NCBI GenBank assembly: GCA_024277725.1
Contig: JAJRUP010000148.1
Coordinates: 1-36,857, forward strand
Direction of reading: 5' to 3'
Length of the DNA: 36,857 nucleotides
From: a bacterium
GTDB lineage: Bacteria > CG2-30-53-67
The notes under the pieces were generated by a model. It did not search any database, had not been told where the DNA came from, and saw only the letters and a program-made list of their open reading frames with translations. Positions 4,458 through 25,598 of the stretch are shown here, piece by piece (positions within the stretch are counted from its first letter, which is position 1; each line of letters begins with the position of its first letter). Position numbers and translations under genes: made by a program.

Positions 4458-5216
4458 TTACACGAGGCGGAGGTACCACTCGATCAGAGAGGTCCCCCAG
4501 AAAAGACTGGCCAAGGCCCCCACGGCAAGAAAGGGGCCAAAGGGTACGGCATATTTCCGGCTTTTCTTGAAAAGAATCATCAAGGCAATCCCGACAACGG
4601 ACCCACCTAAGGCGCCCAGCATAATGGTCAGGAGCATTTTCTTCCACCCTAAAAAGGCGCCGATCATGGCGATCAGCTTGATATCCCCGCCCCCCATACC
4701 GCCGCGGCTTACGAGGGCGATAAGATAAAAGAGTCCCCACCCCAGGGCCGCCCCGGTCAGAGCATCGAGAAAATCAGGCGGCAGAACGAAGAGGCACGCC
4801 AGAAGGCCGATTCCGATACCGGGAAGACTGATCACATCGGGAATGATCTTGTGATGAAGATCAATAAAAGTAATCACCAGGAGGGCGGAAAAAAAGAGCG
4901 CATAGAGCACCATCGGACCGGAAAGGTTGAAACGGAAGTAAAGATAAAGATAGCCCCCCGCATTGATCGCCTCTACCAAAGGATATTGGAACGAAATCGG
5001 GTGTCTGCATGTACGGCATTTGCCGAACAGAAAGATCCAGCTTGCAATCGGAATGTTGTCGTAAAAGCGGATCGGGGCATTACACGCGGGGCAGTGGGAC
5101 CCGGGAAAAACGAGTGATTCCTTCCGGGGAATACGGTAGATACAGACATTCAGAAAGCTGCCGACAACGGCGCCGAAGAGAAAAACCGTAAAGGGAACGA
5201 AAGTCATGAAAGGCAT
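4458..5216 (-). CDS. pilD: Prepilin peptidase / N-methyltransferase
   Basis: The 252-residue inner-membrane aspartic protease cleaves prepilin leaders after glycine and methylates the new N-terminal phenylalanine. It shows the family hallmarks: GSFLNVCIYRIP near the N-terminus, a cytoplasmic zinc-type tetracysteine set (Cys42/Cys45 and Cys67/Cys70) in the methyltransferase part, catalytic Asp119 in FIDLHHKIIPD, and catalytic Asp178 in GGGDIKL. About seven or eight hydrophobic segments follow the usual pattern. It should process all five prepilins in this window. It starts the pilD-pilS unit, 17 nt before the kinase gene. Two in-frame ATGs (5216 and 5207) are possible and neither has a clear Shine-Dalgarno. 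A sigma-70-type promoter is visible upstream. Confidence 0.93.
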   Translation of the reverse strand: MPFMTFVPFTVFLFGAVVGSFLNVCIYRIPRKESLVFPGSHCPACNAPIRFYDNIPIASWIFLFGKCRTCRHPISFQYPLVEAINAGGYLYLYFRFNLSGPMVLYALFFSALLVITFIDLHHKIIPDVISLPGIGIGLLACLFVLPPDFLDALTGAALGWGLFYLIALVSRGGMGGGDIKLIAMIGAFLGWKKMLLTIMLGALGGSVVGIALMILFKKSRKYAVPFGPFLAVGALASLFWGTSLIEWYLRLV

Positions 5217-5264
5217 AATGTACGATTACAACACGCATGGAACAAAGGAAGTCTTCTATTTACA

Positions 5265-5292
5265 ATTATATAATGATTCCGTGATTTTACAA
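5265..5292 (-). promoter_or_regulatory. Sigma-70-type promoter upstream of pilD
   Basis: On the minus strand TTGTAA (5292-5287), a 16-bp spacer and a perfect TATAAT (5270-5265) lie about 50 nt upstream of the pilD start. The -35 box matches consensus at 4 of 6 positions. It would give pilD and pilS a promoter independent of sigma-54. Confidence 0.5.
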
Positions 5293-5347
5293 GGTTTTTT
5301 GACGGACAGCGGCACCAAGGCTCGGAACTGCACGAAGGCTACGTTTA

Positions 5348-5713
5348 TTACCAGTTGCGGGTGTTGCTGTTCGTGATCCACCAGGGCGAACCGGGATCGT
5401 TGCCGGTTCCTGCCGCTCGGGTCGCTGTCGCGGTAAACCCCACCGTGCCAGAGAGAGTTACGGTATAGGAATACTGACTTGCCGGGTCCGGCTGGAACCC
5501 CGGAAGGAGAGCAAGATTGCTGGTATAACTATTATTCTCTGCAAAGTACTGTTCCTCCAGAAGACGTAACGACTGGAGGTCGGTCCACGCTGTCGTCCTT
5601 TCCGCCTTAAGCCGATATCCGGTGTAGGTAGGGATGGCAATGGCGGCCAGGATCCCGACAATGGCAACCGTCACCATCAGCTCAATCAGGGAGAAGCCTT
5701 GCTGTCCACCCAT
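5348..5713 (-). CDS. Type IV pilin, PilE-like
   Basis: The 121-residue prepilin has a six-residue leader MGGQQG, cleavage before Phe7 (FSLIE, Glu11), and the helix LMVTVAIVGILAAIAIPTYTGY. The next part (TDLQSLRLLEEQYFAENNSYT) matches PilE-type minor pilins, which carry an EQYF..N.SYT motif after the helix. The C-terminus is aromatic (SPWWITNSNTRNW) and lacks the cysteine pair found in many PilE proteins. An upstream extension of the reading frame overlaps the preceding pilin gene and is not expected to be translated. The ATG at 5713 follows AAAGGG at a workable distance. It lies 19 nt after the second pilin gene. It may be a minor or adaptor pilin rather than a fibre subunit. Confidence 0.85.
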   Translation of the reverse strand: MGGQQGFSLIELMVTVAIVGILAAIAIPTYTGYRLKAERTTAWTDLQSLRLLEEQYFAENNSYTSNLALLPGFQPDPASQYSYTVTLSGTVGFTATATRAAGTGNDPGSPWWITNSNTRNW

Positions 5714-5732
5714 CCTCGGCCCTTTTGTCGTT

Positions 5733-6203
5733 TTACTGTTCCGTAACAACCATTTTATTGAAAACATCATTCCCCTCCCTGTCCTTCCCCGTAATTGTAA
5801 TCGCATTCCCAATTTGTAACAGGCCGATCTGTCCGTTCCCAGCCGTACCGACGACCCAAAGGGGAACTTTGTTACTCCACGGCGAGGTTTCTCCGGCACG
5901 GGCAGCAACATAGGTTGCCGCTACACCGGCCGCTTTCAGGGCTGCATTATTCATATCGCCGCTCGGCACGGAACCGTCATAATTTGTATCCACCTCGATC
6001 ATTCCGGACGGACCGGAAAAAGCGGATTGCAGCCAGAACTGCAATTCAGCCTCAGCAGCCCCCGCCGCCCCCTCAATCACCCCACGCCGTGATTGTTCCT
6101 GAAAACCTGTATACCCCGGGACCGCCACGGCAGACAAAATGGCGATGATCGCCACAACGATCATCATCTCAATCAAGGTAAATCCTTGCTCCCCGTGCGG
6201 CAT
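5733..6203 (-). CDS. Second pilin, full-length paralogue of the major pilin
   Basis: The 156-residue prepilin has leader MPHGEQG, then Phe8-TLIE (Glu12) and the helix MMIVVAIIAILSAVAVPGYTGF. It aligns with the neighbouring PilA along its whole length: FQE.SR.G, a DTNxDG loop at 72-77, ATY...R, TSPWS and a Gly-Gln-Ile-based strand. It is therefore a tandem duplicate that has diverged in the surface region. The start at 6203 has a purine-rich GGAGGGTGGAG ahead of it; the longer upstream frame runs through the pilA terminator and into pilA. The terminator between the two genes would keep its expression below that of PilA. Role as alternative fibre subunit or minor pilin cannot be told from sequence. 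Confidence 0.86.
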   Translation of the reverse strand: MPHGEQGFTLIEMMIVVAIIAILSAVAVPGYTGFQEQSRRGVIEGAAGAAEAELQFWLQSAFSGPSGMIEVDTNYDGSVPSGDMNNAALKAAGVAATYVAARAGETSPWSNKVPLWVVGTAGNGQIGLLQIGNAITITGKDREGNDVFNKMVVTEQ

Positions 6204-6221
6204 TCTTCTCCACCCTCCGGA

Positions 6222-6260
6222 ACAAAAAACAGGGGCGGACCGGAAAAACCGGCCCACCCC
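6222..6260 (-). terminator. Strong rho-independent terminator after pilA
   Basis: On the minus strand GGGGTGGGCCGG, loop TTTTT, and CCGGTCCGCCCC form a fully paired 12-bp stem (two G-T pairs), followed by TGTTTTTTG. It lies 23 nt after the pilA stop and before the next pilin gene. It should stop most pilA transcripts and let a minority read into the two downstream pilins. Confidence 0.88.
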
Positions 6261-6283
6261 TCGATCATGAGGAATACCACAGA

Positions 6284-6763
6284 TCAGTCGGCACTGACCG
6301 TCTTGGTGTACAGAACAGCACCGCTGCTGTCCGCAGCACGGATCGTGACACTGTTTCCGGACTGCGTGAGCGCAATCTGACCGGCTTTGGCCGATGAGGA
6401 TGCTATCCACAAATCAGCGGTACTCCAGGGGGATGTGTCGCCCGCAGCATTACGCATGGAAATATATGTCGTAGCTACGGCACCGTTCAGAGCCGAATCC
6501 GTAGCGTCCCCCGTACCCACAACTCCATCGCCGTTCGTATCCACCTCCACCAGTGAGTCATTCGGATTTAACGAAGCGCTCAGCCACCCCTGGATCTCCG
6601 CTGCAGCGTTCGAGGCCCCTCCTATGATCGCTCCCTTTCTGGACTTCTCCTGGAAACCGATGTAACCGGGAATGGCCACAGCGGCCAGGATCCCGATGAT
6701 CGCCACAACGATCATCAATTCGATCAGGGTAAAACCGCTTTCGCTCTTCTTGATAGTCATCAT
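6284..6763 (-). CDS. pilA: Major type IV pilin PilA
   Basis: The 159-residue prepilin has a ten-residue leader MMTIKKSESG, cleavage before Phe11 (FTLIE, Glu15) and the classical helix LMIVVAIIGILAAVAIPGYIGFQ that packs in the pilus core. The globular part is rich in Ser, Thr and Ala and contains DTNGDGVVGTGD at 75-86, which resembles a DxDxDG calcium-binding loop. No disulfide loop is present. AGGAG six bases before the first of two ATGs sets the start. It has its own sigma-54 promoter and long leader upstream and a strong terminator downstream, as expected for the most abundant pilin. The Ser/Thr-rich surface and the glycosyltransferase cluster directly upstream make it a candidate glycoprotein; that is an inference. 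Confidence 0.92.
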   Translation of the reverse strand: MMTIKKSESGFTLIELMIVVAIIGILAAVAIPGYIGFQEKSRKGAIIGGASNAAAEIQGWLSASLNPNDSLVEVDTNGDGVVGTGDATDSALNGAVATTYISMRNAAGDTSPWSTADLWIASSSAKAGQIALTQSGNSVTIRAADSSGAVLYTKTVSAD

Positions 6764-8840: not shown

Positions 8841-11540
8841 TCACTCAGTAAAATCGGAAGTGCTATGCCGGGATGGAGCCATTTTCCGGTCAGACTCCAG
8901 GTAGGTTCCGACATACCGTCTCAGGGCATTCAACGCCGGTTCAATCTTCTTATCCCTGGTACGATTGGGGTTTGCCTTCACCGCCTTTTCGAGAAAAACC
9001 AAGGCATTTTCATAGTTCTCAACTTTGTTGTAATAAAACCGCCAGAGCCGAAGTGCGATTTGGAAATTATCCGGGTCGATTTGGAGAATACTCCGTCCGG
9101 TCCGGATCGCCTTTGCCCGGTACGGATATCCCACCGCCTCGTAGAGGTCGTAGAGCTTCAGGAGGAGCTTCAAGTCCACGGAATTCTTATTTATGGCCGA
9201 TTCGTAGGTGCTGATCGCCTCTTTTACCCTCCCGAGTTTTACAAAGAGTTCGCCTTTTGCCACTGTTGCACCCGGATCATCTCCTTCCGCTACAAAGCGG
9301 TTCGATTTTTCCTGCAGATCCCGCATCTTCTTCAGTGCGGAGAGCCGGTCGGTGAAGGACTTATTACCTGGGTTCTGCGATACAAGTTCCTTTTCGAGTC
9401 GCATAGCTTCCTCGAAATCGAGCCCCTGTGAAAATACATCCACGGAAGTTTCAAGACACACATCGGAAGAACTCCCCTTCTCTCCGGTAAGACCTTCCGT
9501 CACCTTTAGAGCTTCCGAATACTTCCCTTGCTTCAGGAACGCCTTGGCAAGTAGGCACCGGGTCTCACAAGAGATATCTCCTGCGGCCAAGGCGGAACGT
9601 AGCCTCCTTTCAGCCTCTCTGTTATTTCCGGCGTCGAGATAGAGTTCGCCGTACAGACGATCGGCCTCCATCTCCTCCGCCTGATGACCGCCCTTTTCCA
9701 GGGCATCCAGTTTTTGTTGGAGCCGTTCCGCCCAACCGATTTTTTCCGGGACCCCTTTCAGAAAATCGTAAGATTCGAGGTCATCTCCAGCCAGTCGGAG
9801 CGCCTCACGGTACTCCTTTGCAGCCTGTTGAAACTTGAGTTCCTTGACGAGGACCTCTGCCATGTCATAATGAAATTCCGACCGGTCCGGGTGGAGAGAC
9901 AGGGCGCTCTCCATGGCCTCTTCAGCCTCATCAAGCCTCCCTTCTTCCAGATAGATTTTTGCAATATTCGGAAGATGCCCCCCCCCCTCATAGTCCGGTT
10001 GAACCTGCAGGTAATATTGGAGCGCTTTTTTATTTTCGCTCCTCATTAAGGCAAAATACCCCGCATTCATAAGGGCCATCTGGTCATGGGGATCAAGCTC
10101 CAGCGATTTTTCCGTTTCTTTCTCTCCCTGTTTGTATGCCCCCTGTTTGAAAAGAATCACGGCACGAATGGCAAAAACCTTTGAATCCCGGTAGAGTTTT
10201 GGATAAACCGCCTTTTCCAGTTCGCGCCACGCCGTCTGTTCAAGATGGACGAGATGGTAGGCGTGACCGCGGAAAAAGTGATTCACCGGATTTTCCGGGT
10301 CATGTCTCAGCCCTTCCGCCGTCAGGGCAAAGGTGTCCAACCAGTCCCGGTTACGGTCGACCGTTCGAACAAAATAGAAGGAACCGACAAGAAAACCGGA
10401 CAAAAACAACAGGAAAACCTGTGTACGTAGCCGATAGACCCTGTCCGCCAGGAGTCCCCCCAGCAGGCAGAAACCATAGGAAGGAAGATAAAGGTAATGT
10501 TCCGCCATGAGCATATGGTGCGGGATGATCTGCATTACCGGCAGAAGAGTAATAAAAAAGAACCAGACTGCAAAGGTGACAAGCCGGTGACGGCGCATCA
10601 CCAGAAAGGAGAACAACAAGAGGCCCAGGATCAGCGCCATGGATAACAGCACGGAAACATCGAGAAAGGAATGATAAAGAGGGGTCATCCGGTAATCGAA
10701 GCGGAGCACTACCGGAAAGAGAAGTTTCTTCACGTAGGCGGCTACAACAGTGAAGACGGTTGTAAAATTGGAGACCGGGTCTCCGCCCCACCACTTGATC
10801 CCTTTCGTCGTCACCATTCCGGAGGCATGTTCCAGGAAGAGAATGATATAAAGATAGCCGGCCAAGAGAAGAGCGGAGAACAGGATCACCCACTTGAAGT
10901 GCTGGAGGTTTTTCCGAAGGGATCGGCAAAAGAGCACTCCCGTCGGGACGGAAGAATCCCGTTCCTCATGTATGTCCCGAAGTATCTCGTAGGCAAAAAT
11001 CAGAAATGGGAGCGTGATCGCCATCTCCTTGGCCGAGATACCCAGAAGGTAACAAAGGACCGCACCCACATAGCAGCGTGTTCCTCCGGTCTCCCGTCCC
11101 TTCAGATAGGCCAGGAACCCCAATAGATAAAAGAGAGCGGAAAGGATGTCCCTGCGCCCCGAGAGGTAACTGACCGCCTCGGTGTGGATCGGATGAAGTG
11201 CGAAAGCGAAAGCTGTTACGAAAGACATTATATAGTTTCCGGTCAGACGTCTGGTCATCCACAGGACAACGAGGACCGTCAAGGTGTTGTAGAGTAAGTT
11301 CGACAGATGGTACCCGATCGGATTGAGCCCCCAGATGGCATAATCGACGGCATAAGAGAAGGTCCGGACCCACCGGTAGGTCAGAAGCCCGATGTTCCAG
11401 AAGGAGTGAATCGCCGGGTTCTTCTGAATCAAAACCATGTCATCGAGGACGAAACCACCAAAAATAGAGTTGAAATAAACAGCACTGGAAAGAATAATGA
11501 CAAACAAGATGAGGTACCGAGTGTATTTACGGTTCGTCAT
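8841..11540 (-). CDS. TMTC-like GT-C membrane glycosyltransferase with long TPR domain (B)
   Basis: The 899-residue protein has an N-terminal multi-span membrane part (to about residue 410) and a long C-terminal helical TPR array. Key motifs are FVLDD (Asp33-Asp34), GYHLSNLLYN, HPIHTEAVSYLSGRRD (116-131), KEMAITLP and AEHYLYLPSYG. The HP.HTEAV...GRxD and LYLPS motifs are shared with eukaryotic TMTC1-4 (CAZy GT105), which transfer mannose from dolichyl-phosphate-mannose to Ser/Thr. It would act in the inner membrane with the active site facing the periplasm. The ATG at 11540 is chosen; a TTG six bases upstream has better Shine-Dalgarno spacing. It is a clear paralogue of the next gene upstream. 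Function in pilin or surface-protein glycosylation is an inference. Confidence 0.72.
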   Translation of the reverse strand: MTNRKYTRYLILFVIILSSAVYFNSIFGGFVLDDMVLIQKNPAIHSFWNIGLLTYRWVRTFSYAVDYAIWGLNPIGYHLSNLLYNTLTVLVVLWMTRRLTGNYIMSFVTAFAFALHPIHTEAVSYLSGRRDILSALFYLLGFLAYLKGRETGGTRCYVGAVLCYLLGISAKEMAITLPFLIFAYEILRDIHEERDSSVPTGVLFCRSLRKNLQHFKWVILFSALLLAGYLYIILFLEHASGMVTTKGIKWWGGDPVSNFTTVFTVVAAYVKKLLFPVVLRFDYRMTPLYHSFLDVSVLLSMALILGLLLFSFLVMRRHRLVTFAVWFFFITLLPVMQIIPHHMLMAEHYLYLPSYGFCLLGGLLADRVYRLRTQVFLLFLSGFLVGSFYFVRTVDRNRDWLDTFALTAEGLRHDPENPVNHFFRGHAYHLVHLEQTAWRELEKAVYPKLYRDSKVFAIRAVILFKQGAYKQGEKETEKSLELDPHDQMALMNAGYFALMRSENKKALQYYLQVQPDYEGGGHLPNIAKIYLEEGRLDEAEEAMESALSLHPDRSEFHYDMAEVLVKELKFQQAAKEYREALRLAGDDLESYDFLKGVPEKIGWAERLQQKLDALEKGGHQAEEMEADRLYGELYLDAGNNREAERRLRSALAAGDISCETRCLLAKAFLKQGKYSEALKVTEGLTGEKGSSSDVCLETSVDVFSQGLDFEEAMRLEKELVSQNPGNKSFTDRLSALKKMRDLQEKSNRFVAEGDDPGATVAKGELFVKLGRVKEAISTYESAINKNSVDLKLLLKLYDLYEAVGYPYRAKAIRTGRSILQIDPDNFQIALRLWRFYYNKVENYENALVFLEKAVKANPNRTRDKKIEPALNALRRYVGTYLESDRKMAPSRHSTSDFTE

Positions 11541-11609: not shown

Positions 11610-12128
11610 TTATTCCACGATCGCTGAAAACTTAAGGCCTGTTCTGGCTGCATATTGTCGATACATACTTTTGAGATCATCCACAACCTTTTGGAGAGTT
11701 TGTGCATCCACCTGCGCAGGATTCAAGGCAAGGGATCTCTGAAAAAACCGGAGCGCTTCGGGCAGATCATGGACTTTTTTCCAGTACAGATATCCTAATT
11801 GCGTGTACGATTCTGCATCTTCCGGGAAATATATTAATGTTTGACGGTAGGCCCGAATTGCATCTCCCAGGTAAGGCTCTCCCATTAAAGCATATATCTT
11901 CCCGATTCGCCGGAGGACGGTCCGGTCTTTCCCGGCAGTTTCTTGCAAGCCAAGGAGAATCACCGCAGCCTTGTCATTATATCCGAAATCAACGAGTATA
12001 TCCGCCCACTCCAGCATTACCGCCGGACTGTTTGTGCCCTCCTTAGACCCCTTCCTGACACGGGACATCTTCTTGTAAACCTTCCTGAATGACACACTGT
12101 CCATTCCCAAATCGACCGCCCGATCAAA
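11610..12128 (-). pseudogene. C-terminal TPR part of TMTC-like gene C, cut off by an in-frame TAA
   Basis: The frame continues without shift from the gene at 12129-14312 across one TAA (12131-12129). The protein reads ...GRAIS, stop, FDRAVDLGMDS..., which is a single TPR helix pair interrupted in the middle. It contains about three TPR motifs and ends like paralogue B (a TPR ...ALRFF.RSLALNP followed by a long helix). Restored, the gene would be about 900 codons, the same as paralogue B. Re-initiation would have to use TTG at 12110 or ATG at 12104, neither with a clear ribosome binding site. It may be a decayed 3' end, a product of readthrough, or a sequencing error. Confidence 0.7.
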
Positions 12129-14312
12129 TTAGGATATGGCACGACCAAAATCCATGTCAGCACCATAGAGTCGGCCGAGATGATAATGAAACTCAGCGTT
12201 CCGGTCCTGTTGCTCAACGGCCTCTTTCATGTATTGAATGGCTTGATGGTACTCCTTCTTCTTCTCATACAACGTTGCCATCAGAGAATAAACTGCCGCA
12301 GAGACATCACCTGATGCCAGAAGCGGTTCGAGCAGTTCATAGGCGTTCCCATACCGGCCGATCTTAGAATAGGCTTCAGCCAGCAGAAGCAGACCGTTTC
12401 TGTCGTCTGGATTTACCTTGAGAATGTTTTCCGCACGCTGAAAGTGGACTGATTCAGAGCGAATCGTTTCTTCCCGGTTAGTAATCTCTGCCGAAAGATC
12501 CGTGCGAACTCTCGCGAACATCGAATATGCCTTTTCCGCCGGTCCGAATTCTCTCAACCATTCGTAACACCTGCCCAGGTTTCGGAGCAGGTTTTCATCC
12601 TGCGGCAAGTATCGAAGGAGTTTTCGGCTCTCCAAAATAATCCGCCTCGCAACACGATCCGCCTCTTCGTTATTCCACTGTGATTGGTAGATTCGAAAGA
12701 TCTGCTGCAATGCCGGGAGAAAGTAGTGTCCGGATTTGATTTTCTCGAAATAGGACAAGGCCTCTTCCTGATTCCTCATGGAGGAATAGAGACACCCCAG
12801 CACAAAATCGGCCAGGGGTGTTTCCGCCATCTTGATCGCCTTCTCTTCAAGACGGATTGCTTTCCGGTATTCTCCCCTCCTGTAGTGTATAAATCCTCTG
12901 TAAGCAACAGCTTGGGCAAAAGGTTTTTCTCCCTCCGCTGCCTGTCGGAATTCTCTTAAGGCATTTTCGTAGAGAAAGGCCTTCATGTAAGTCATTCCCA
13001 ACAATAAGTGTACCCGCTGATTTTTCGGGAAGACATGGAGATCGTCTCGGTAGATCGTGACATTGTTCTTCCAATCACGGTTCCGTTCCAAAGTTCGAAT
13101 TGAGAAAAAGGAAACGAGGAGTACAATCAGGACCAGAAATAGAGGAATCTTTTTGGGGTCTGTAGTGACGAGATGTTCATAGAAAACACCCACGAGGAGA
13201 CAAAAACCTAAAGAGGGAAGATAAAGAGCATGTTCAGCGACCAAGTCATGGTGAGGAACAATCTGCAATACGGGCAGAAGTGTTACAAAGTAAAGAAAGA
13301 TGGAGAAGGCGGCTACTTTATTTTTCCGGATACAGATCAATACAAAAAAGAGCATCAAGCCGAGAATCAACCATGCCAAAAGCACCCTCCCGTCCAAGAC
13401 TGATCGAATCAAAGGAAAAGAAAAATAATCCGCAACCAGCACAACAGGGAAAAGAGTCTTTTTGATATAGTGCAACAGGACGTACGAAACCGTCAACAAG
13501 TTCGAGAGGATTCCTCCCCCCCACCATTCAATCCCTTTTGCGGATACCATCGAGGAAGCATGCCGCAAGATAACGTAATAATAGATCGTGAGGGGAATGG
13601 AAAGCAGGAGGAAAATATAGAACCAGGAAAATTCTTTCCCCACCCTCTTGATACTACGAACAAGATCCTGGATATAACGGCTGCTGAATGGGCGATTTGT
13701 GGATACAAAGCGGGTGATGACATCGTATCCAAAAAGCAGGAGCGGGAAAGAGGCCGCCATCTCCTTGGTCAAGAGCGACGGCACGTAGCATGCAAAGACG
13801 GCATATAAATCCCGTTGCCTGCCCTGATCCCGGTAGGCAAGAAAGAATTTGAAGCCTGACAAATAAAAGAGCGTAAAGAGCACATCCCGGCGCCCGGAAA
13901 GATAACTCACAGCCTCCGTATGCACGGGATGGACGGCGAACAGGCACGCGACCCAGAAAGCCGATCCGTAATTACGGAACATCCTTCGTGAAATCGCATA
14001 GACCAGAAGGCTGTTCAGAACATGGATGAAGATGTTAGTGAGGTGATATCCGACGGGGTTTAGCCCCCAGAAGAAATAATCGAATGTATACGAGATCGTT
14101 CGGAGAGGGCGATAATCATGGAGGAAAATATCTCCAATGTTCAGCAGACTTCTGATCCGGAGATTCCCTGCGATCAACGTCCGATCGTCCATGACAAAAC
14201 CATTGTGCAGGGTGTTGATGTAAACCAGGACGCTCAATGCACAAATTACGACAATGGCGAGGCTTCTTTGAGTTCGAGTATCGTCCCTTGGATACAAATT
14301 TTGCTCCGGCAT
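12129..14312 (-). CDS. TMTC-like GT-C membrane glycosyltransferase (C), prematurely stopped
   Basis: The 727-residue product keeps the whole membrane part and most of the TPR array. Motifs: FVMDD (Asp42-Asp43), GYHLTNIFIH, HPVHTEAVSYLSGRRD (128-143), KEMAASFP, the HASSMVSAKGIEWWGG loop, and AEHALYLPSLG. It is closely similar to paralogue B over its length, so the pair arose by tandem duplication. Translation ends at a TAA inside a TPR motif, removing about 170 residues. The membrane catalytic part may still work, since the lost region is probably for substrate binding. The ATG at 14312 has a weak AGGGAT ahead of it. It follows the upstream glycosyltransferase gene by 8 nt, so it is in the same operon. 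Confidence 0.72.
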   Translation of the reverse strand: MPEQNLYPRDDTRTQRSLAIVVICALSVLVYINTLHNGFVMDDRTLIAGNLRIRSLLNIGDIFLHDYRPLRTISYTFDYFFWGLNPVGYHLTNIFIHVLNSLLVYAISRRMFRNYGSAFWVACLFAVHPVHTEAVSYLSGRRDVLFTLFYLSGFKFFLAYRDQGRQRDLYAVFACYVPSLLTKEMAASFPLLLFGYDVITRFVSTNRPFSSRYIQDLVRSIKRVGKEFSWFYIFLLLSIPLTIYYYVILRHASSMVSAKGIEWWGGGILSNLLTVSYVLLHYIKKTLFPVVLVADYFSFPLIRSVLDGRVLLAWLILGLMLFFVLICIRKNKVAAFSIFLYFVTLLPVLQIVPHHDLVAEHALYLPSLGFCLLVGVFYEHLVTTDPKKIPLFLVLIVLLVSFFSIRTLERNRDWKNNVTIYRDDLHVFPKNQRVHLLLGMTYMKAFLYENALREFRQAAEGEKPFAQAVAYRGFIHYRRGEYRKAIRLEEKAIKMAETPLADFVLGCLYSSMRNQEEALSYFEKIKSGHYFLPALQQIFRIYQSQWNNEEADRVARRIILESRKLLRYLPQDENLLRNLGRCYEWLREFGPAEKAYSMFARVRTDLSAEITNREETIRSESVHFQRAENILKVNPDDRNGLLLLAEAYSKIGRYGNAYELLEPLLASGDVSAAVYSLMATLYEKKKEYHQAIQYMKEAVEQQDRNAEFHYHLGRLYGADMDFGRAIS

Positions 14313-14320
14313 TTTTATCC

Positions 14321-15451
14321 CTATTGATCTTTCATCAATAGTTTCAGATATTTCCTGCTCATTACTTCTGCTGAAACAAGTTGGAAATCATTGTTGCCCG
14401 CTGCATGATCACCATGAAGGATTTCATCAATGATGCGAGCCAGTCCCGTGATATCTTCCGGATCAACGAAATGAAGGGTCGAAAAATGATCTGCAAGTTC
14501 GATTATACCCGAGTTCTTCGATGCAATAACATGCATGTCGTGGAAGAGCGCTTCCAAATAAACCAGGCCGAAACTTTCATAGAGTGACGGCATGCAGAAG
14601 ATACTGCATTTACGATAATATTCATTCATGGAAGACGGGGCCAATCGTCCGAGAAACACAACTTGCTCTTGAAGACCGAGAGTCTTCGTCATTCTGCTTA
14701 TTCGTTTTAGGTTTCTGTCTTTTCCCGCCACATAACACTTGATCAAAGGGTATCGGCTCCGAAGAATCTGGATAGCCCGGAGCAGAGCGGGCAGCCCTTT
14801 CCTGTAAAAATTCCCCCCCGCGAAGAATATGCTATACTTCTCTTCCGGAACTTGAGTTTTTTTCAGGGGTCTCAGGATAATGCCATTATGTATAACATCG
14901 ATCTTCCGATCGAGTTGATAATGTTTCATCAACATGTCCCTGCAGTACATAGAAACAGTCACCAGTTGTGTCATCTTGCCGTATGCCTTACGTTCCAGCA
15001 TATACATACACTTATAATAGATAGACCTCTTCGGCCAGTCCGGATAATACCGTATGTTCTCCCGGTCAACCCTGCCGAACATTGCGGCATAGAAATCATG
15101 AATTATCCCAAGGGTTTCATTCTTTCGACGGAAGAAAAGTCCTTCTCTCGCGTCCATAAAAATCACCTTGGAGGATACAGGAAGGTCGTTATCCACAAAA
15201 TAGCGGTTGATCTTCATGGAGAAAGAGACCCATCGGTGACCGGTAATGTCTAAGGGGTTTTTCTTGACAGTCCCGATTGAAACCTCTTTTTTTTTGCAAT
15301 CTATTTCCTCGCCCTCCGGACAGATCACCAGGACATTAAACGAAGCAGATAATTTTCGAAGGAGTGCACGCGCCAACGTTCCGACACCGCTTTTAATATT
15401 GCGGAGCTGATTGGTGACGAGGATAATATTTTTCTTCTCTTTAACAGCCAT
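14321..15451 (-). CDS. Family 4 glycosyltransferase
   Basis: The 376-residue protein has the GT-B two-lobe plan of CAZy GT4. The N-terminal lobe starts with a strand and a GVGTLARALL turn (acceptor side). The C-terminal lobe has VIHNGI, the FFAGGNFYRKGLPALLRAI motif that opens the nucleotide-binding lobe, and the E-x7-E motif ESFGLVYLEAL that binds the nucleotide-sugar. It is a retaining enzyme that adds a sugar to a lipid-linked or soluble glycan on the cytoplasmic side. GGAAG six bases before the ATG supports the start. It overlaps the upstream GT2 gene by 11 nt. Donor and acceptor cannot be deduced. Confidence 0.83.
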   Translation of the reverse strand: MAVKEKKNIILVTNQLRNIKSGVGTLARALLRKLSASFNVLVICPEGEEIDCKKKEVSIGTVKKNPLDITGHRWVSFSMKINRYFVDNDLPVSSKVIFMDAREGLFFRRKNETLGIIHDFYAAMFGRVDRENIRYYPDWPKRSIYYKCMYMLERKAYGKMTQLVTVSMYCRDMLMKHYQLDRKIDVIHNGIILRPLKKTQVPEEKYSIFFAGGNFYRKGLPALLRAIQILRSRYPLIKCYVAGKDRNLKRISRMTKTLGLQEQVVFLGRLAPSSMNEYYRKCSIFCMPSLYESFGLVYLEALFHDMHVIASKNSGIIELADHFSTLHFVDPEDITGLARIIDEILHGDHAAGNNDFQLVSAEVMSRKYLKLLMKDQ

Positions 15452-16376
15452 TGTATTCTTCCGGACTTCGGGAGGATCTCGGGACCTGATGGTGGATGTG
15501 CCATGTCAGGGCATTCCTGATGGCGGTCACAATTTCGACGCGTCCATGCAGAAGTGCCTGGACACATCGGTAGAGTAGACTCGCTGCCAACCAGCCAAAG
15601 GCAGGCAGCCAAAATTTGAACGGAAGATGCTTTCGGATGAAGAGTATCTTGTTTCTTGTTTTGTAGTAGGCAATTGTCCGGTTATAGTCACCTCCACTGG
15701 ATTGCGACACCTTGTGCCATATTACGGATCGAGGGTTAACTACGATACGATAGCCTGCCTTCCCGGCTCGATAACACCAGTCATCTTCCTCCCCATAGAG
15801 AAAAAAAGACTCATCCATAAGACCGATGCATTCGATGACTTCCCGCCTGATCATCAATGCGCATCCCGTGACGCTATCCACCTCCCTTAGCTCGGTTGCG
15901 GCACTCCTGTTTTTTTGGAACTTTCCGCTTCGGCCATGATAAAAAATCCAGTTAATCAGACTCCCTTCAGACCAGATTCTCTCCGGTTGGTCATAATAAA
16001 GAATCTTCGGCCCGGCAATACCTACACCCGGTTTGAAGGCAGCGAGGAGCTCCTGGAGAAAATCAGGCGATACGACCGTGTCATTATTCAGCAGAAGGAT
16101 GTAATCCGCTCCATGATCGAGGGCATATCGGATGCCGACATTGTTGCCCCCTGCGAACCCGAGATTTTCTTCATTCCGGATCAATACGACACGGGGGTCG
16201 TCTGCAACAATCCCTGCTGGCTCTTCACAAAGAATTTCCTCGGAACCATTGTCAATCAAGATGATCTTGAAATCCGGTTGTGCAACTGTTCGAAGTGATC
16301 GCAGACACTCGACTGTATCTTGCTTCCCGTTATAGTTCAATATAATGATGTATATCGACACAGGCATAAAGCGCAT
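15441..16376 (-). CDS. Family 2 glycosyltransferase (rhamnosyltransferase-like)
   Basis: The 311-residue protein is a GT-A inverting glycosyltransferase. It shows IIILNYNGKQDTVECLRSL at the N-terminus, IDNGSEE, ENLGFAGGNNVG, the metal-binding NND of LLLNNDTVVSPDFL (the DXD equivalent), CALMIRREV and the ED motif in GEEDDWCYRA. This pattern is common in enzymes annotated as rhamnosyl- or galactofuranosyltransferases of O-antigen clusters. A hydrophobic C-terminal stretch may hold it to the membrane. The start could be at 16376 or the ATG at 16367; neither has a clear ribosome binding site. It lies in the glycosyltransferase operon. Confidence 0.84.
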   Translation of the reverse strand: MRFMPVSIYIIILNYNGKQDTVECLRSLRTVAQPDFKIILIDNGSEEILCEEPAGIVADDPRVVLIRNEENLGFAGGNNVGIRYALDHGADYILLLNNDTVVSPDFLQELLAAFKPGVGIAGPKILYYDQPERIWSEGSLINWIFYHGRSGKFQKNRSAATELREVDSVTGCALMIRREVIECIGLMDESFFLYGEEDDWCYRAGKAGYRIVVNPRSVIWHKVSQSSGGDYNRTIAYYKTRNKILFIRKHLPFKFWLPAFGWLAASLLYRCVQALLHGRVEIVTAIRNALTWHIHHQVPRSSRSPEEYNGC

Positions 16377-16403
16377 CCAGTTTCGATGTCTATATCGAAT
16401 GCG

Positions 16404-17513
16404 TCATGATACAGATAGAAGGGCCGTAAGTCTCCGGCACAGGTCCGAAACCGACTCATTGATAACTTCGAGAAGACTGCAATCCACAAGAAGTTCGGTT
16501 TGATCTCTACATTGATCAATGAACTGATGGAGTTTCATTTTATGAATTGCAGGTACTCTCCTCAAGGTCGTCCCCCCCGGCAGCTCCCGCATTGCAGGCG
16601 TATCAAGGGTTAATAACGGTCTGCTGCAGGCCAGCGCCTGGAAGACCTTGTTCGGGATTACCCGTTGCGCTTTTTCCGTATCTCCGAAAATCCCGAGGCA
16701 GAGATCGGCAGCAGCAATTTCCTCGGGAAGTTTTTCATAGGGGACCCAGTCGATGAATTCGACGTTCCTAAGTTGCAGCTTTGCCACCAATGCATGGATC
16801 TCGTCCGACAACTGTCCCCGCCCGATAATCCTGAAACAAATCGACGGGTCATCCTCCAGCTCCTTTGCGGCATGAAGGATGTAGCCTATGCCGTGCAGTG
16901 GGATGAACTTGCCGTAAAATAGAACGCGGAAGAGTCCGTCGTTTCTGTCCGGTTTCTCCATGGGAAAGAAAATATCCTCATCCGCGCCGACGAAGACCCG
17001 GACGAACTTTTTACGATCTATCCCGAGCAAATCGGATATGTAATCTATGTGGGTGTTCGTGTCGAGCACAACTAGATCCGCAAGTCGGAGCGACCACCGA
17101 TCGACCTGAAAGAGACTCCGTGCGATGATGGAACCTTCAGGGAAGATCCCGCGGTCAATCACGAGGGTGTCGTAGAGCGACACCAGCGGGTTGAAAATAA
17201 GAGGACGCCTTTTGAAGAGGAGCAGCAAACGTGCGAGAAAGATATCCATCTGTCCGATGTATCCGACCATCAGGCAATCAAAGTCCCCTGCCCGGAAAAA
17301 CCGAACGGAAAGAACCAGATAGGCATAGAAGAGCCGGATAGCGACAACCAGAAGCGATCCTGCGGAGAGGAATTTGCCGGTTTTGTCCTCCTTGCGCTCC
17401 CAGAATGGAACGTGGCATTCTACCACCTCGATCCCGCTGCGGCGCAACCCCTTTATCATAATCCGGTTCCGGGGGTAGTCTTTCTCATAGGTTCCGAAAT
17501 AGCATACTTTCAT
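16404..17513 (-). CDS. Family 4 glycosyltransferase
   Basis: The 369-residue protein has a GT-B layout: N-terminal MKVCYFGTYEKDYPRN with an early hydrophobic, possibly membrane-touching stretch (LLVVAIRLFYAYLVLSVRFF, about 54-73), then VFVGADEDIFFP, FRVLFYGKFIPLHGIGYILHAA and a C-terminal lobe with VIPNKVFQALACSRPLLTLDTPA. The pattern fits glycosyltransferases of the GT4 group in surface polysaccharide clusters. GAGG ahead of the ATG supports the start. It lies 27 nt upstream of the GT2 gene and 26 nt downstream of the next GT4 gene. The usual E-x7-E is only partly kept, so donor specificity may differ. Confidence 0.8.
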   Translation of the reverse strand: MKVCYFGTYEKDYPRNRIMIKGLRRSGIEVVECHVPFWERKEDKTGKFLSAGSLLVVAIRLFYAYLVLSVRFFRAGDFDCLMVGYIGQMDIFLARLLLLFKRRPLIFNPLVSLYDTLVIDRGIFPEGSIIARSLFQVDRWSLRLADLVVLDTNTHIDYISDLLGIDRKKFVRVFVGADEDIFFPMEKPDRNDGLFRVLFYGKFIPLHGIGYILHAAKELEDDPSICFRIIGRGQLSDEIHALVAKLQLRNVEFIDWVPYEKLPEEIAAADLCLGIFGDTEKAQRVIPNKVFQALACSRPLLTLDTPAMRELPGGTTLRRVPAIHKMKLHQFIDQCRDQTELLVDCSLLEVINESVSDLCRRLTALLSVS

Positions 17514-17539
17514 AATACCTCGGTGATTCAGACGTGCCT

Positions 17540-18628
17540 TTAATGGACATATTCCCGGAGAAATGCCTCGAAGCGAGATGCGGACTTCTCCCAGGTAAAT
17601 TCCAGTATGCGTTCTCGCCCAAGCTTCGCTAAAGAGATCCGTCGCTCGTCAGAACTGAGCAATGCCAATGCGTTCTCTGCAAGTTGATCAGGTCTTCGAG
17701 ATGGTGACAGCAAGGCAGTTTCGGCGTGGATGGCATAGTCCTGTACACCACCATTATCGGTCGAAACCACTGCATTCCCGCAGGCCATGGCTTCCACTGC
17801 CGGTAAGTGCCACCCTTCCGTCCAACTGGGGCAAATATAGATAGAACTATGATTATAGATATCTTCAATCAGTACTTTTTGTGGAGGATCCTTGACATAT
17901 TGTATCCAGGAAGGTGCGTGGGACGGCCCCCGGTCCACTCCAAAAAGGATTGCCGAAATACCGGGCATTTTTTCCTTGATCAAATTCAGGCACTGGAGCC
18001 CATCACGAAACCCTTTCCATTCCATCTTGGAATATAACATGCAGATCCGGGCAGGCCGCTCTTCAATGGGTTGGGTGAGCCTGTAGATATCGAGGTTGAT
18101 ACCGTTCGGAATATGGACGACATCTTCTACATTGAATTCTTCTGCGATCTTCAAAAGCCATTTCGCAATCACAATCTTGTGTAGCGGCAAACTCCAAGTT
18201 GCATCCACCCGGTCCTTCGGCCCGTCCCATGTCTCGTAATGCTGAATAAGATAGAACTTTTCACCTTTTGCAGGAGGATAGCCGGCAACATATTCTGCCG
18301 TATCCCAGGCAGTGGCAACAACGGCGTCTGCATCGGGTACATAACATGTATCCAGCACCGGAACGTAAAGAAGCCGAACCCGCGGATCCACCGGATGCCA
18401 AGAGATTCCACGGGGATGGGTCCAGCGATCGCGCATCCAACGGATGAAGCGTCGCCCACGATCGGCGAAACTGTAGGGAGTCGGCCCGGGATGGTTGGGC
18501 CTGGATGCGGCATGCGCTACAGTAACTTCGTGACCGCGGGAAACCAGTCGGTTAGCATATTCATAAACAACCCGGTAGCCGCCACGAGGTTTCCATCCAT
18601 ATCCCGGAAGTACAAAAGTGATCCTCAT
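17540..18628 (-). CDS. Family 4 glycosyltransferase
   Basis: The 362-residue protein begins MRITFVLPGYGWKPRGGYRVVYEYANRL, with the glycine-rich N-terminal loop seen in GT4 enzymes. The C-terminal lobe has HIPNGINLDIY, a strand-turn ARICMLYSKMEWKG, and the sugar-nucleotide motif EGWHLPAVEAMACG. Its ATG overlaps the upstream flippase stop as ATGA, so translation is coupled. The longer upstream open frame overlaps the flippase gene and is rejected. It is cytoplasmic and probably adds one sugar to the glycan that the flippase exports. Specificity is unknown. Confidence 0.85.
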   Translation of the reverse strand: MRITFVLPGYGWKPRGGYRVVYEYANRLVSRGHEVTVAHAASRPNHPGPTPYSFADRGRRFIRWMRDRWTHPRGISWHPVDPRVRLLYVPVLDTCYVPDADAVVATAWDTAEYVAGYPPAKGEKFYLIQHYETWDGPKDRVDATWSLPLHKIVIAKWLLKIAEEFNVEDVVHIPNGINLDIYRLTQPIEERPARICMLYSKMEWKGFRDGLQCLNLIKEKMPGISAILFGVDRGPSHAPSWIQYVKDPPQKVLIEDIYNHSSIYICPSWTEGWHLPAVEAMACGNAVVSTDNGGVQDYAIHAETALLSPSRRPDQLAENALALLSSDERRISLAKLGRERILEFTWEKSASRFEAFLREYVH

Positions 18629-20142
18629 CTGATCCCCTGGCCAAAAACAGGACGCCACGTCCCCTCCAGCCATGCCAAAACAAAAAGACCCGTTATATAG
18701 AAAAACGAGAAAACAACAATTTTCAATGCTGCGTTTATTGTCGGTTGAGTGATTCCGACCATACGGTTTGAAATGATTATCCCTGCACCCGCAATGATGA
18801 TCGCCAGTGTTAAACTCTTGCAGGGGATGCGCCATACAATATAGTTTTTTGAAGAAAACCATATCAGGAAGGTATATAGTGCATAACTGAAGAGTGTTGT
18901 ATAACCGGCGGCAAGATATCCATATCGTGGGACCAACAGTATATTTAAGACTAAATTCGTAATTGCGCACACTCCAATCCATTTCAGCATGATGGAGGGA
19001 TGTTCCAGTAATTCCATCCCCTTGTGCCCCAACATGGATACTTGGAAAAGAATCTGTCCGGCCAAGACCGGTACAAGAATAGGATAACCTTCACGAAAAG
19101 ATCCGCCTAAAACTAAGGTGAACAAATCGTGCGCCCCGATGTAAGTTATACTTAAAAGACCGATTCCTGCCCAAAGATACCACCGGGTCATCATGGAAAT
19201 CGTCTCTTCAATTTTCCCCCGGTTTCTGCCCTCCCACATATGCATAATAATTGGGAAAGCCGCTAAAGTCACGGGAGAGCTTATCAGTCCTACCACACCG
19301 GTAATCAACGTATAATTCGCAGAATAAATTCCTACAGATGTGCTTCCTTGGAACGCTTGCAAAACATAACGATCACCTACGTTCAGCAATTGCATCGAAA
19401 AAAACCATAAAACCATGGGAATGCCATAGCGCGCAAAACGCCGCACATCCGTCTCGCGATAAAAAGAATTATCGAATCCGCCGACTTTCTTTGAAATTGT
19501 GAATATAAAAAACGGCAATAATATTGCCAATCCCAAAGCCTGCCCTAAGACAAGGAGTGCCGGATTTCTTCCTATAAGCAATATCAGAATGAGAGAAATA
19601 GCAAATTGTAATAAAGATCGAATGATCTCGAAGAATCGATACCCCCAGGGATCGAGGCTGGCAGCCATAATAGGCAACATGAGTGAATAAAGGCTTTGAG
19701 TCAACAAAAGAGCACCGGCAGCCACCCCCATGTACCCCCCCCAGACATGACTCAGAAAACCGGAGAGACCAATGCCCACGATGGACGCTGCCAAACCGAC
19801 CAGGAGTAATAAAAGCATTAAAGTAGCACGGTATGTCTCCAGTCTACCCTGTTGCTGATACTCACTGAAATATCTTCCGATCGGTTGAGCTCCCCATTCG
19901 CTGAGAATCACACACACGGGAATGACGATAGAAACAACCAAACTATACATTCCATACGCCTCAGGAACGAACATGCGCGTAAACAGAACAGGACTGACAA
20001 TTGCAATGATCGCAGGTAGCGACTTTGCAGATAAATAACGCAAAGTATCCGTAAGAAAACGATGCATGGGATGACCGAGCTTAGAGGGCCGTGAAGCTTC
20101 GAACATTGAAGACAGAGAAAAATATTTCATATATGGCCCCAT
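18625..20142 (-). CDS. Oligosaccharide flippase (Wzx/MATE-type membrane protein)
   Basis: The protein of up to 505 residues is almost wholly hydrophobic, with about 12-14 predicted helices and the N-terminal pattern SLPAIIAIVSPVLFTRMFVPEAYGMYSL typical of polysaccharide biosynthesis flippases. It would move an undecaprenyl-linked glycan across the inner membrane. The stop overlaps the next GT4 start (ATGA). The start is uncertain: ATGs at 20142, 20130 and 20067 all lack a clear ribosome binding site, and the last gives a protein starting MHRFLTDTLRYLSAKSLP. By eye this gene is richer in A and T than its neighbours, as is common in surface-glycan clusters that move between strains. Confidence 0.82.
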   Translation of the reverse strand: MGPYMKYFSLSSMFEASRPSKLGHPMHRFLTDTLRYLSAKSLPAIIAIVSPVLFTRMFVPEAYGMYSLVVSIVIPVCVILSEWGAQPIGRYFSEYQQQGRLETYRATLMLLLLLVGLAASIVGIGLSGFLSHVWGGYMGVAAGALLLTQSLYSLMLPIMAASLDPWGYRFFEIIRSLLQFAISLILILLIGRNPALLVLGQALGLAILLPFFIFTISKKVGGFDNSFYRETDVRRFARYGIPMVLWFFSMQLLNVGDRYVLQAFQGSTSVGIYSANYTLITGVVGLISSPVTLAAFPIIMHMWEGRNRGKIEETISMMTRWYLWAGIGLLSITYIGAHDLFTLVLGGSFREGYPILVPVLAGQILFQVSMLGHKGMELLEHPSIMLKWIGVCAITNLVLNILLVPRYGYLAAGYTTLFSYALYTFLIWFSSKNYIVWRIPCKSLTLAIIIAGAGIIISNRMVGITQPTINAALKIVVFSFFYITGLFVLAWLEGTWRPVFGQGIR

Positions 20143-20177
20143 GGGTCTTATTGTAGCTGTTCTTGGCGTGATAACTT

Positions 20178-21122
20178 CTAAAGTATTTTTTTAGAAATGA
20201 TTGAAGGATCTTCCCGTTTCTTGTACGTATGAACAGAGTGGATCAGCATCTCCCCCAAAAGTCCCATGGAAATGAACTGGATGCCGAGGATGATCGCGAC
20301 CCAGCCAAAGACCATGAGCGGTCGTACATGCATGGGAAGACCGATCAGCCATTGGAGAATGAACCAGGCACTCAGGAACACCCCGGGAATGAGGCAGAAA
20401 AGCCCGATCCCTCCGAAGAGATGGAGCGGACGCTTCAGGTAACGTGTCAGGAACAGAACCGTGAGCAGGTCCAGGAACCCCCGGGTGAACCGCTCCATAC
20501 CGTACTTGGAAGCTCCGTGTATGCGCGGATGATGGTCCACCTTGATTTCCGTTACGCGGAACCCCTTCCAGCGGGCCAGAACCGGGACGAAGCGGTGCAG
20601 CTCCCCGTAGAGCAGGATGTTTTCCACGACCTCGCGCCGGTAACATTTGAATCCGCAGTTGAAATCGTGGAGTTTGATGCCGGTCATCAGGGAAACCGCG
20701 CGATTGAAGATCCGGGAGGGAAGCGTCTTCCCGATCGGATCGTGCCGTTTGAACTTCCAGCCGGAGACCAGGTCGTACCCCGCCTCCAGTTTTTCGAGAA
20801 ACCGGGGGATCTCCTTGGGATCATCCTGGAGATCGGCATCCATTGTGAAAATGATCTCTCCCTGAGCATGTTCAAAACCGACCGACAAGGCAACGGATTT
20901 CCCGAAATTGTCCCGCAATTGTATCACCTTGATTCTCCCATCCTTTTCATGCAGGGCCTCGAGTTTTCCCATGGACCCGTCTCGACTCCCATCGTCCACA
21001 AAAATAAGCTCGTAGTTGTTCTGCAGGGAATCGAGTACCGTCTGGATGCCGGAAGAAAGCGCTTTGAGGCTTTCTTCCTCGTCATAGACAGGAATGACGA
21101 CGGAGATCATCGGTTTCGGCAT
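20178..21122 (-). CDS. Polyprenyl-phosphate sugar synthase (DPM1/GtrB-like GT2)
   Basis: The 314-residue protein has a GT-A domain with SVVIPVYDEEESL, FVDDGSRDGS, the DADLQDDP metal-binding motif, NCGFKCYRREV and HGASKYGMERF, followed by two C-terminal membrane helices (about 233-257 and 268-292). This is the plan of enzymes that transfer mannose or glucose from a nucleotide to a polyprenyl phosphate, such as dolichol-phosphate mannose synthase and GtrB/ArnC. The product would be the donor for GT-C enzymes in the periplasm. Three TMTC-like GT-C proteins follow in the same strand, which supports a joint pathway. It is the first gene of the cluster, with a plausible sigma-70 promoter upstream. 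Which sugar is used is not visible. Confidence 0.87.
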   Translation of the reverse strand: MPKPMISVVIPVYDEEESLKALSSGIQTVLDSLQNNYELIFVDDGSRDGSMGKLEALHEKDGRIKVIQLRDNFGKSVALSVGFEHAQGEIIFTMDADLQDDPKEIPRFLEKLEAGYDLVSGWKFKRHDPIGKTLPSRIFNRAVSLMTGIKLHDFNCGFKCYRREVVENILLYGELHRFVPVLARWKGFRVTEIKVDHHPRIHGASKYGMERFTRGFLDLLTVLFLTRYLKRPLHLFGGIGLFCLIPGVFLSAWFILQWLIGLPMHVRPLMVFGWVAIILGIQFISMGLLGEMLIHSVHTYKKREDPSIISKKIL

Positions 21123-21291: not shown

Positions 21292-21699
21292 TCAGGTCAC
21301 CTGTCCGTTTTCATAACGCCAGAATTCCTGCGGAGAGAGAATATCTATCTCAAATCGACTCTTTAGTACAAGCAAGTCCTTGTCACCGGTAATGATGCAT
21401 CGGCACTTCCCTGCCTTGGCGGTCCCAATGACAAGATCATCATCCGGGTCCCTGCAGACAGGCGTCTCCAAAGCAGCCGGAACGACAACCGTCATATAAC
21501 TTCGCAGCAATGAGGAAGCAGCCTCAACCTCCGGATGTGGAATCTTGATTTTTGAAATGAGCTTGTCCGAAAACTCATTCAGGATGAAATCCGATGTAAC
21601 GAGATCATGCAGCTGGGCACAATGTTCCACTAATTCCGAACAGGCGCCGCGGGAGATAAAAGAGGCAATCAGGACATTCGTATCCAGGACAATTTTCAT
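21292..21699 (-). CDS. vapC: PIN-domain toxin (VapC-like ribonuclease)
   Basis: The 135-residue protein has a PIN nuclease fold: MKIVLDTNVLIASF with Asp6, Glu42 in LNEF, the acidic group in CRDPDDDLVIGTAKAG (Asp84-Asp88) and Asp106 in ITGDKDLL. These form the metal-binding acidic centre of PIN ribonucleases. It belongs to the group annotated as putative toxin component of the PIN family. Its ATG overlaps the upstream antitoxin stop as ATGA, a usual arrangement that couples the two. When freed from antitoxin it should cleave RNA; the target is unknown. Confidence 0.85.
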   Translation of the reverse strand: MKIVLDTNVLIASFISRGACSELVEHCAQLHDLVTSDFILNEFSDKLISKIKIPHPEVEAASSLLRSYMTVVVPAALETPVCRDPDDDLVIGTAKAGKCRCIITGDKDLLVLKSRFEIDILSPQEFWRYENGQVT

Positions 21700-21914
21700 G
21701 ACAGGCGGTCAAAAACATCCTGGTCGGTATATACCCCTTCTTGTTGTGCCTGGCCAAGCATTCGCCGCCTCAGTGAACGAAAACGACCAATAAAGAGGTA
21801 GTTTTTGATCGATTTTCGGATGATTTCACTGCGGGAAAGATCTTCCGTTTCCGCGAGCTGATCCAACTCCCGTTTGATTTCTTCCGGTAGACTGATTGTA
21901 ATCGTCTGTCGCAT
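21696..21914 (-). CDS. vapB: Ribbon-helix-helix antitoxin (VapB/CopG-like)
   Basis: The 72-residue protein starts MRQTITISLPEEIKRELDQLAETEDLSRSEIIRKSIKNYL, the classical ribbon-helix-helix DNA-binding fold with the N-terminal strand and the SRSEIIRKS turn. The C-terminal half (about 45-72) should wrap around the toxin. The ATG at 21914 has AGAGG six bases upstream; the longer open frame runs into the cyclase gene and is rejected. It overlaps vapC by 4 nt. A near-consensus promoter with an operator palindrome over its -10 lies just upstream, which fits self-repression by the complex. Confidence 0.85.
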   Translation of the reverse strand: MRQTITISLPEEIKRELDQLAETEDLSRSEIIRKSIKNYLFIGRFRSLRRRMLGQAQQEGVYTDQDVFDRLS

Positions 21915-21941
21915 CGGCAACCTCTGTGGAAAAATACCGTA

Positions 21942-21980
21942 CCTGTAATAGAATATAATACAGGGTCGGGCATTTGTCAA
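21942..21980 (-). promoter_or_regulatory. vapBC promoter with overlapping operator palindrome
   Basis: On the minus strand TTGACA (21980-21975), a 17-bp spacer and TATATT (21957-21952) form a near-perfect sigma-70 promoter beginning just after the cyclase stop codon. A 23-bp imperfect palindrome at 21942-21964 (CCTGTA ... TACAGG, with matching inner bases) covers the -10 and start site. The antitoxin is a ribbon-helix-helix protein, so binding there would block transcription. Confidence 0.75.
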
Positions 21981-21981
21981 T

Positions 21982-24842: not shown

Positions 24843-25598
24843 TCAGTGCCCTTGTGCCTCTGTCCTGTCCCCTGCTTTCAAATAGATCAAAAACTCCTTA
24901 TTTCCCTTCGGTCCGAGTATCGGTGATTCAATCACGCCGGACGGTTCCAGGCCGATTTTTCGGCTGAAATTTGTAATCTTCTCCACGACCTCCTTGTGCT
25001 TGACCGGGTCGTGTACCACTCCCCGTTTTCCCACCTCTCCCTTTCCCACCTCGAATTGCGGCTTGATGAGGGCAATCATTGCTCCCTGTGGTTTCAGCAG
25101 AGGGGATACCACGGGAAGGACATGGAGCAGGGAGATGAAGGCAACATCGATCGTGATCAGGTCAAAGGGTTCCGGCAGGATCTCCGCCGTAACATACCGG
25201 ATGTTGGTCCGCTCAATGCAGACCACCCGTGGGTCTTGTCGGAGTGACCAGGCGAGTTGACCGTACCCCACGTCCAGAGCATAGACCTTTCGCACCCCTT
25301 CTTGGAGTAAACAGTCGGTGAATCCCCCGGTTGAGGCGCCGACATCGAGGGCCACCTTCCCTTGGAGAATGGGTTGGAACACTCGCAGGGCCTCTTCCAG
25401 TTTCCGGCCGCCCCGGCTCACGTAGGGGCGTCCCCCTTCACGAATCCGGATCTCGCCTTGCACTCCCACCAACGTCCCGGGCTTGTCAACCCGTTTATCA
25501 TCGACGATCACCCGGCCGGCAAGAATCATGGCGCGGGCCTTTTCACGGCTGGGCACCAGGTTCCGGTTCACAAGGAGTTTATCGATTCTCGTTTTCAT
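24843..25598 (-). CDS. tlyA: TlyA-type rRNA (cytidine-2'-O)-methyltransferase
   Basis: The 251-residue protein has an N-terminal S4 RNA-binding domain ([34 protein letters not shown]) and an FtsJ-type SAM methyltransferase domain. The glycine-rich motif is [19 protein letters not shown], followed by [24 protein letters not shown] and [10 protein letters not shown]. It should methylate 2'-OH of cytidine in 16S and/or 23S rRNA; some members are called haemolysin A. The ATG at 25598 is chosen because it begins the S4 domain; the longer frame overlaps dxs. It overlaps dxs by 20 nt, so it ends an operon with dxs, ispA and xseB. Confidence 0.92.

Follow-up and report, generated by a model that had tools for sequence, protein, structure and literature searches.

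An in-frame TAA in a bacterial TMTC-like gene and an excess of lone stop codons in the assembly that carries it

Three adjacent TMTC-like genes and one internal stop

The window examined here, a stretch of 36,857 nucleotides of bacterial DNA, contains three TMTC-like genes side by side, as an earlier sequence-only reading of the same stretch had described. The first of the three, gene A, adjoins glycosyltransferase and flippase-type genes at 14321-21122. Translation of its frame from 14312 to 11610 on the reverse strand gave 901 codons, with one internal TAA and a terminal TAA (Table 1). We could confirm that the frame is otherwise open, that this is one gene with one in-frame stop inside a TPR motif, within the TPR array and with the membrane part intact, and that a single substitution can explain the stop. 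The restored length was also as described, at 900 residues compared with 899 for gene B from its ATG.

Table 1. Features of the TMTC-like genes in the window
Feature	Coordinates	Strand	Basis and remarks
Gene A, part before stop	12132..14312	-	ORF, 727 aa, ATG at 14312; N-terminal helix bundle (taken for membrane domain) and most of TPR array; Pfam TPR matches; sub-threshold TMTC_DUF1736 match; model mean pLDDT 84
In-frame TAA, codon 728	12129..12131	-	Translation
First ATG behind stop (codon 9), possible but unconvincing restart site	12102..12104	-	Ribosome site judged by eye
Gene A, part behind stop	11613..12128	-	172 sense codons; weak Pfam TPR matches; coding score; match to congener C terminus
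TAA ending restored frame	11610..11612	-	Translation
Gene B, intact paralogue, 899 aa from ATG	8841..11540	-	ORF, comparison with congener
Gene C, third TMTC-like gene, 546 aa	7193..8833	-	ORF, Pfam

The 172 codons behind the stop are still coding, and their openness is not a matter of chance. With a dicodon model trained without the window, this part scored 0.188 in frame, the other five frames reaching 0.072 at most; a frame open over 172 codons arose in only 11 of 20,000 first-order Markov sequences of the same composition. The first 150 nucleotides are not decisive when taken alone, with scores of 0.173 for the frame and 0.182 for a reverse frame and thus no clear winner. No second stop or frameshift was found in gene A; behind the TAA, all 172 codons are sense codons in frame.

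In a search of 41 genomes, a single further genome of the genus was returned, G001 (hereafter called the congener), and it gave the best match outside the window's own genome (G000). The scan of genome contigs kept 80 of 125 more distant loci, and own or very near records may be absent from it. The orthologue in the congener (L030:8559-10778) encodes 739 aa from a GTG, with 287 of 624 aligned columns identical to gene A. Its frame is free of internal stops, and the orthologue of gene B comes after it. Around the stop site, some 160 residues of the TPR array are missing from this orthologue, whereas the C-terminal 89 residues are kept, which indicates that the length of the array varies and that the sequence beyond the stop corresponds to the conserved end of the same protein. 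The C termini of genes A and B had been called alike. This likeness is weak (26% over 72 aa; E, 3e-4), and it is to the congener's C terminus that the part behind the stop is clearly similar (37% over 89 aa; E, 5e-17). Some of the likeness is generic to TPRs, for this part is also matched by another protein of the window's own genome (L003) and by one from farther away (L031).

As the congener's orthologue is free of internal stops and its C terminus matches the part behind the TAA, the alignments indicate that the stop interrupts a single gene and does not mark a conserved gene boundary; a conserved split gene was rejected on the former ground. In this one congener, the TAA is not shared, although the stretch around the site is missing as well. 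The possibility raised earlier, that relatives carry the same stop together with a well-formed downstream start, thus did not hold in the single congener compared.

It is highly improbable that the arrangement is functional, with the stop read through or translation restarting behind it to give two polypeptides. In-frame stops under apparent constraint have been reported in prokaryotes (PMC7918605), and, as in gene A, the genes described there have a single stop with coding sequence on both sides. That work relied on stops shared by orthologues of at least two species, however, and the stop in gene A is not shared with the congener. An ATG does occur at codon 9 behind the stop, but by eye no convincing ribosome site was found in the 20 bases preceding it. 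Moreover, TAA also terminates 11 of the 29 other ORFs listed for the window, and across the genome all three stop codons are involved in interruptions of this kind, as described below.

Overlapping ORFs at 5348-6763, 21292-23838, and 24843-27507 were considered as further broken genes and rejected, each ORF being a gene of its own by Pfam: three pilin-type proteins in the first group; PIN, RHH, and guanylate cyclase in the second; and FtsJ and Dxs in the third. The pilin-type genes are consecutive, with overlapping ORFs, and lie at 4458-6763 beside a prepilin peptidase gene. The RHH/PIN pair at 21292-22133 is of the toxin-antitoxin type, and its first listed ORF overlaps the end of the guanylate-cyclase-domain gene.

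The predicted protein of gene A

If intact, gene A would yield a protein of about 900 residues, with a TMTC/PMT-like membrane domain in front of a long TPR array. In the AlphaFold model of the 727 residues before the stop (built with 23 sequences), long helices run to about residue 413 and are followed by the helix pairs of the array; we take the former for the membrane domain. Across 23 homologues, nine alignment columns did not vary, including the DD pair of the first loop (D42 and D43, in 23 of 23). Gene A has both a YRP and a KE element, each of which we counted in 14 of the 23 rows. Together with the multihelix N-terminal domain, the first-loop DD, and the TPRs behind, these are features that it shares with the TMTC O-mannosyltransferases of the GT-C/PMT clan (PMC7801869). 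It differs from them in being bacterial, in lying in a polysaccharide cluster, in having His (as does gene B) in place of the Arg of the last-loop motif ERxxY, which by our count is Arg in 11 of the 23 rows, and in matching Pfam TMTC_DUF1736 below the cutoff (18.3 versus 27 bits). The 50 matches listed from a fold search of the PDB were TPR and other repeat proteins, with no GT-C enzyme among them by title, and the search is silent on the membrane domain. On these sequence features, "TMTC-like" is a fair label and gene A a putative glycosyltransferase gene; the intact protein would probably serve the adjoining surface-polysaccharide gene cluster.

Lone stops in the assembly and in two relatives

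We looked for similar lone stops in 80 contigs of the G000 assembly (780,153 bases), collecting stops with coding sequence on both sides as well as stops inside alignments to proteins of the congener or of a second relative, G002. The scans used a rival-frame filter against antisense frames. Fifteen lone stops were found in 14 other genes of these contigs, each with a domain, a homologue, or a solved relative extending across the stop. These unrelated genes encoded a nitroreductase, a response regulator, a family-2 glycosyltransferase, a TPR protein, an MlaE permease, a radical-SAM/SPASM protein, a transhydrogenase-like flavoprotein, two histidine kinases, a ThiE-type enzyme, a TPR/lytic-transglycosylase protein (two stops), a sugar-binding protein, an iron-sulfur protein, and a NagA-type enzyme. 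TAA, TAG, and TGA were all represented. The weakest case is L143 at 19394, where the spanning Pfam match is below the cutoff and the homologue is a TPR protein. Two of the fifteen (L145 at 2251 and L216 at 3774) have a nearby ATG and were confirmed by Pfam and PDB. Two places in L191 and one in L154 had no spanning match and were left uncounted, and TGA codons in rhodanese, peroxiredoxin, and YeeE-type genes were set aside as possible selenocysteine. Beyond the fifteen, a TPR lipoprotein gene on contig C50 (PrsT type, over the NCBIfam cutoff) has one TAA, and its orthologue in the congener, 67% identical, runs through the stop site.

Neither relative gave a comparable result. Barring one rhodanese TGA that is shared with G000, no lone stop was confirmed in 725,421 bases of the congener or in 233,745 bases of G002, whereas the rate of 15 in 780 kb predicts 13.9 in the congener sample. 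Before any criterion on nearby ATGs was applied, the coding scan gave 66 rows in G000, 45 in the congener, and 9 in G002. Like-for-like rows, those whose stop is followed by no ATG within 14 codons, numbered 22, 11, and 2, respectively, and those with a spanning domain or homologue numbered 11, 0, and 0, the shared rhodanese TGA being uncounted. Ten of the eleven (less the one on C50) predict about 9 in the congener. The Pfam scan covered all but four of the 22 rows (L005, L123, L125, and L153), and rows with a nearby ATG were judged by eye except for L145 and L216.

A mechanical homology rule (40 residues on each side, 10 of 40 identical on both sides, and no ATG in the next 14 codons) gave nine stops in G000, one in the congener (L234), and two neighboring codons at one place in G002 (L241); by eye, the places in the two relatives were doubtful, as was L139 among the nine. 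In the homology scan of G000, 8 of 15 stops obtained with congener queries were dropped by eye because they lay upstream of a start, at a gene end, or in a doubtful frame; with G002 queries, 2 of 7 were dropped and 2 repeat earlier ones. On the same grounds, we dropped all 10 rows (8 distinct stops) with the congener as subject and all 3 with G002 as subject. The exact rate of lone stops is thus soft, confirmation being partly by eye, but the contrast between G000 and its relatives is not. The G000 assembly has an excess of lone stops over both relatives. The earlier view of the TAA as an event peculiar to gene A finds no support in this survey, with many such stops in unrelated genes of the same assembly; the single base change stands, but its gene-specific meaning does not.

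Origin of the stops

What appeared to be the lone stop of one gene is one of many in its assembly, and this changes its meaning. The TAA would be one of many scattered single-base substitutions that chance to make a stop. We consider it probable, from the sequence comparisons, that these are consensus base errors of a fragmented assembly (252 contigs) and that the real gene is intact; we infer that the base is wrong at the TAA site. Scattered errors are suggested because many unrelated genes are hit while the relatives have no comparable load. The absence of frameshifts points the same way, since natural gene decay yields frameshifts as well as stops: in the homology-covered parts of the samples, there were no frameshift-like junctions in G000, three in the congener, and none in G002. 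Also, the confirmed stops crowd on 11 of the 80 contigs, fewer than by chance (p 0.045), which fits thinly covered stretches. With random substitution, 10 to 15 stops would correspond to roughly one wrong base in every 1.5 to 2.3 kb of coding sequence, which we judge plausible if the assembly is thinly covered.

Several observations count against consensus error. The completeness of G000 is 99.42%, with 0.9% contamination, and the other overlapping ORFs of the window are intact genes. A bacterium with real nonsense mutations in ~2% of its genes would not be exceptional. Missense changes were only weakly in excess in a comparison of two genomes (27 versus 13 in conserved context, p 0.04; 472 versus 439 overall, p 0.29), where other GC-losing changes were likewise in excess; a three-genome comparison had an overlap of one gene.

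Alternatively, the TAA may be a genuine nonsense mutation that arose recently in the population sampled, the other stops being real too and the lineage one that gathers substitutions. Gene A would then be a young pseudogene, or it would encode a protein of 727 residues, with the membrane domain retained and the last TPRs lost. This is the chief competing explanation, possible but less probable than consensus error. The stop does break an otherwise open frame, the intact paralogue B might cover the loss, and a TPR array with a portion absent does occur in the congener's orthologue, but conservation of the C terminus suggests that what is lost is important. Natural decay would also be odd as the source of fifteen stops with no frameshift-like junction. 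With regard to DNA repair, MutM/Fpg (TIGR00577) was unmatched in all six genomes from the family of the window (G000 to G005) and was matched in three others (G006, G007, and G008), which could favor real mutations, yet the congener also lacks a MutM match and shows no comparable load. MutY is intact in G000, which speaks against real mutations, and its loss was rejected as a cause. Because MutY is intact and MutM is matchless throughout the family, neither repair gene sets G000 apart.

As for the kind of change, six of the seven stops for which a homologue residue lay one substitution away (judged by eye) were of the G-to-T/C-to-A class, one was another transversion, and none were transitions; the other 8 of the 15 gave no such residue and are outside this count. 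The random expectation for the class is 0.35 to 0.41, so that the chance of six in seven is about 0.01 to 0.02, although the pattern was noticed post hoc. G-to-T is the change caused by guanine oxidation, which also occurs outside the cell (PMC12390751). It is unlikely, though conceivable, that the lone stops are real and mark a substitution-mutator lineage in the wild, within a family that lacks MutM, with mostly G-to-T/C-to-A nonsense changes and no frameshifts. Were the stops real, these data would be a sign of an environmental mutator lineage.

Coding sequences interrupted by sequencing error are known from Mycobacterium smegmatis. They were likewise broken in the deposited genome and intact in relatives, and 28 of 73 that were resequenced proved to be errors (PMC1852416). 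Those errors were insertions or deletions, miscalls being invisible to the method, whereas the cases in G000 are all in-frame stops, a difference that counts against consensus error here. Returning to the probable consensus error in gene A, reads with a sense codon at 12129-12131 are the leading expectation, because the assembly has many lone stops and none was confirmed in the congener sample. From the assembly alone, the TAA should not serve as evidence of gene loss, truncation, or readthrough.

Some further features were seen in the course of the scans. The shared in-frame TGA lies in the rhodanese domain of a rhodanese-rubrerythrin protein (L147:10692, reverse strand, in G000; L162:8627, forward strand, in the congener). 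Because SelB is present (over the cutoff in 6 of 6 genomes searched), this TGA probably encodes selenocysteine and the protein is probably a selenoprotein. In G000, TGA codons in a peroxiredoxin-like gene (L152:5435, reverse strand) and in a YeeE/sulfur-transport gene (L129:6256, reverse strand) are either selenocysteine or further lone stops. Lastly, in the congener, a frameshift-like junction in L176 near 10500 (reverse strand) was seen with both G000 and G002 queries.
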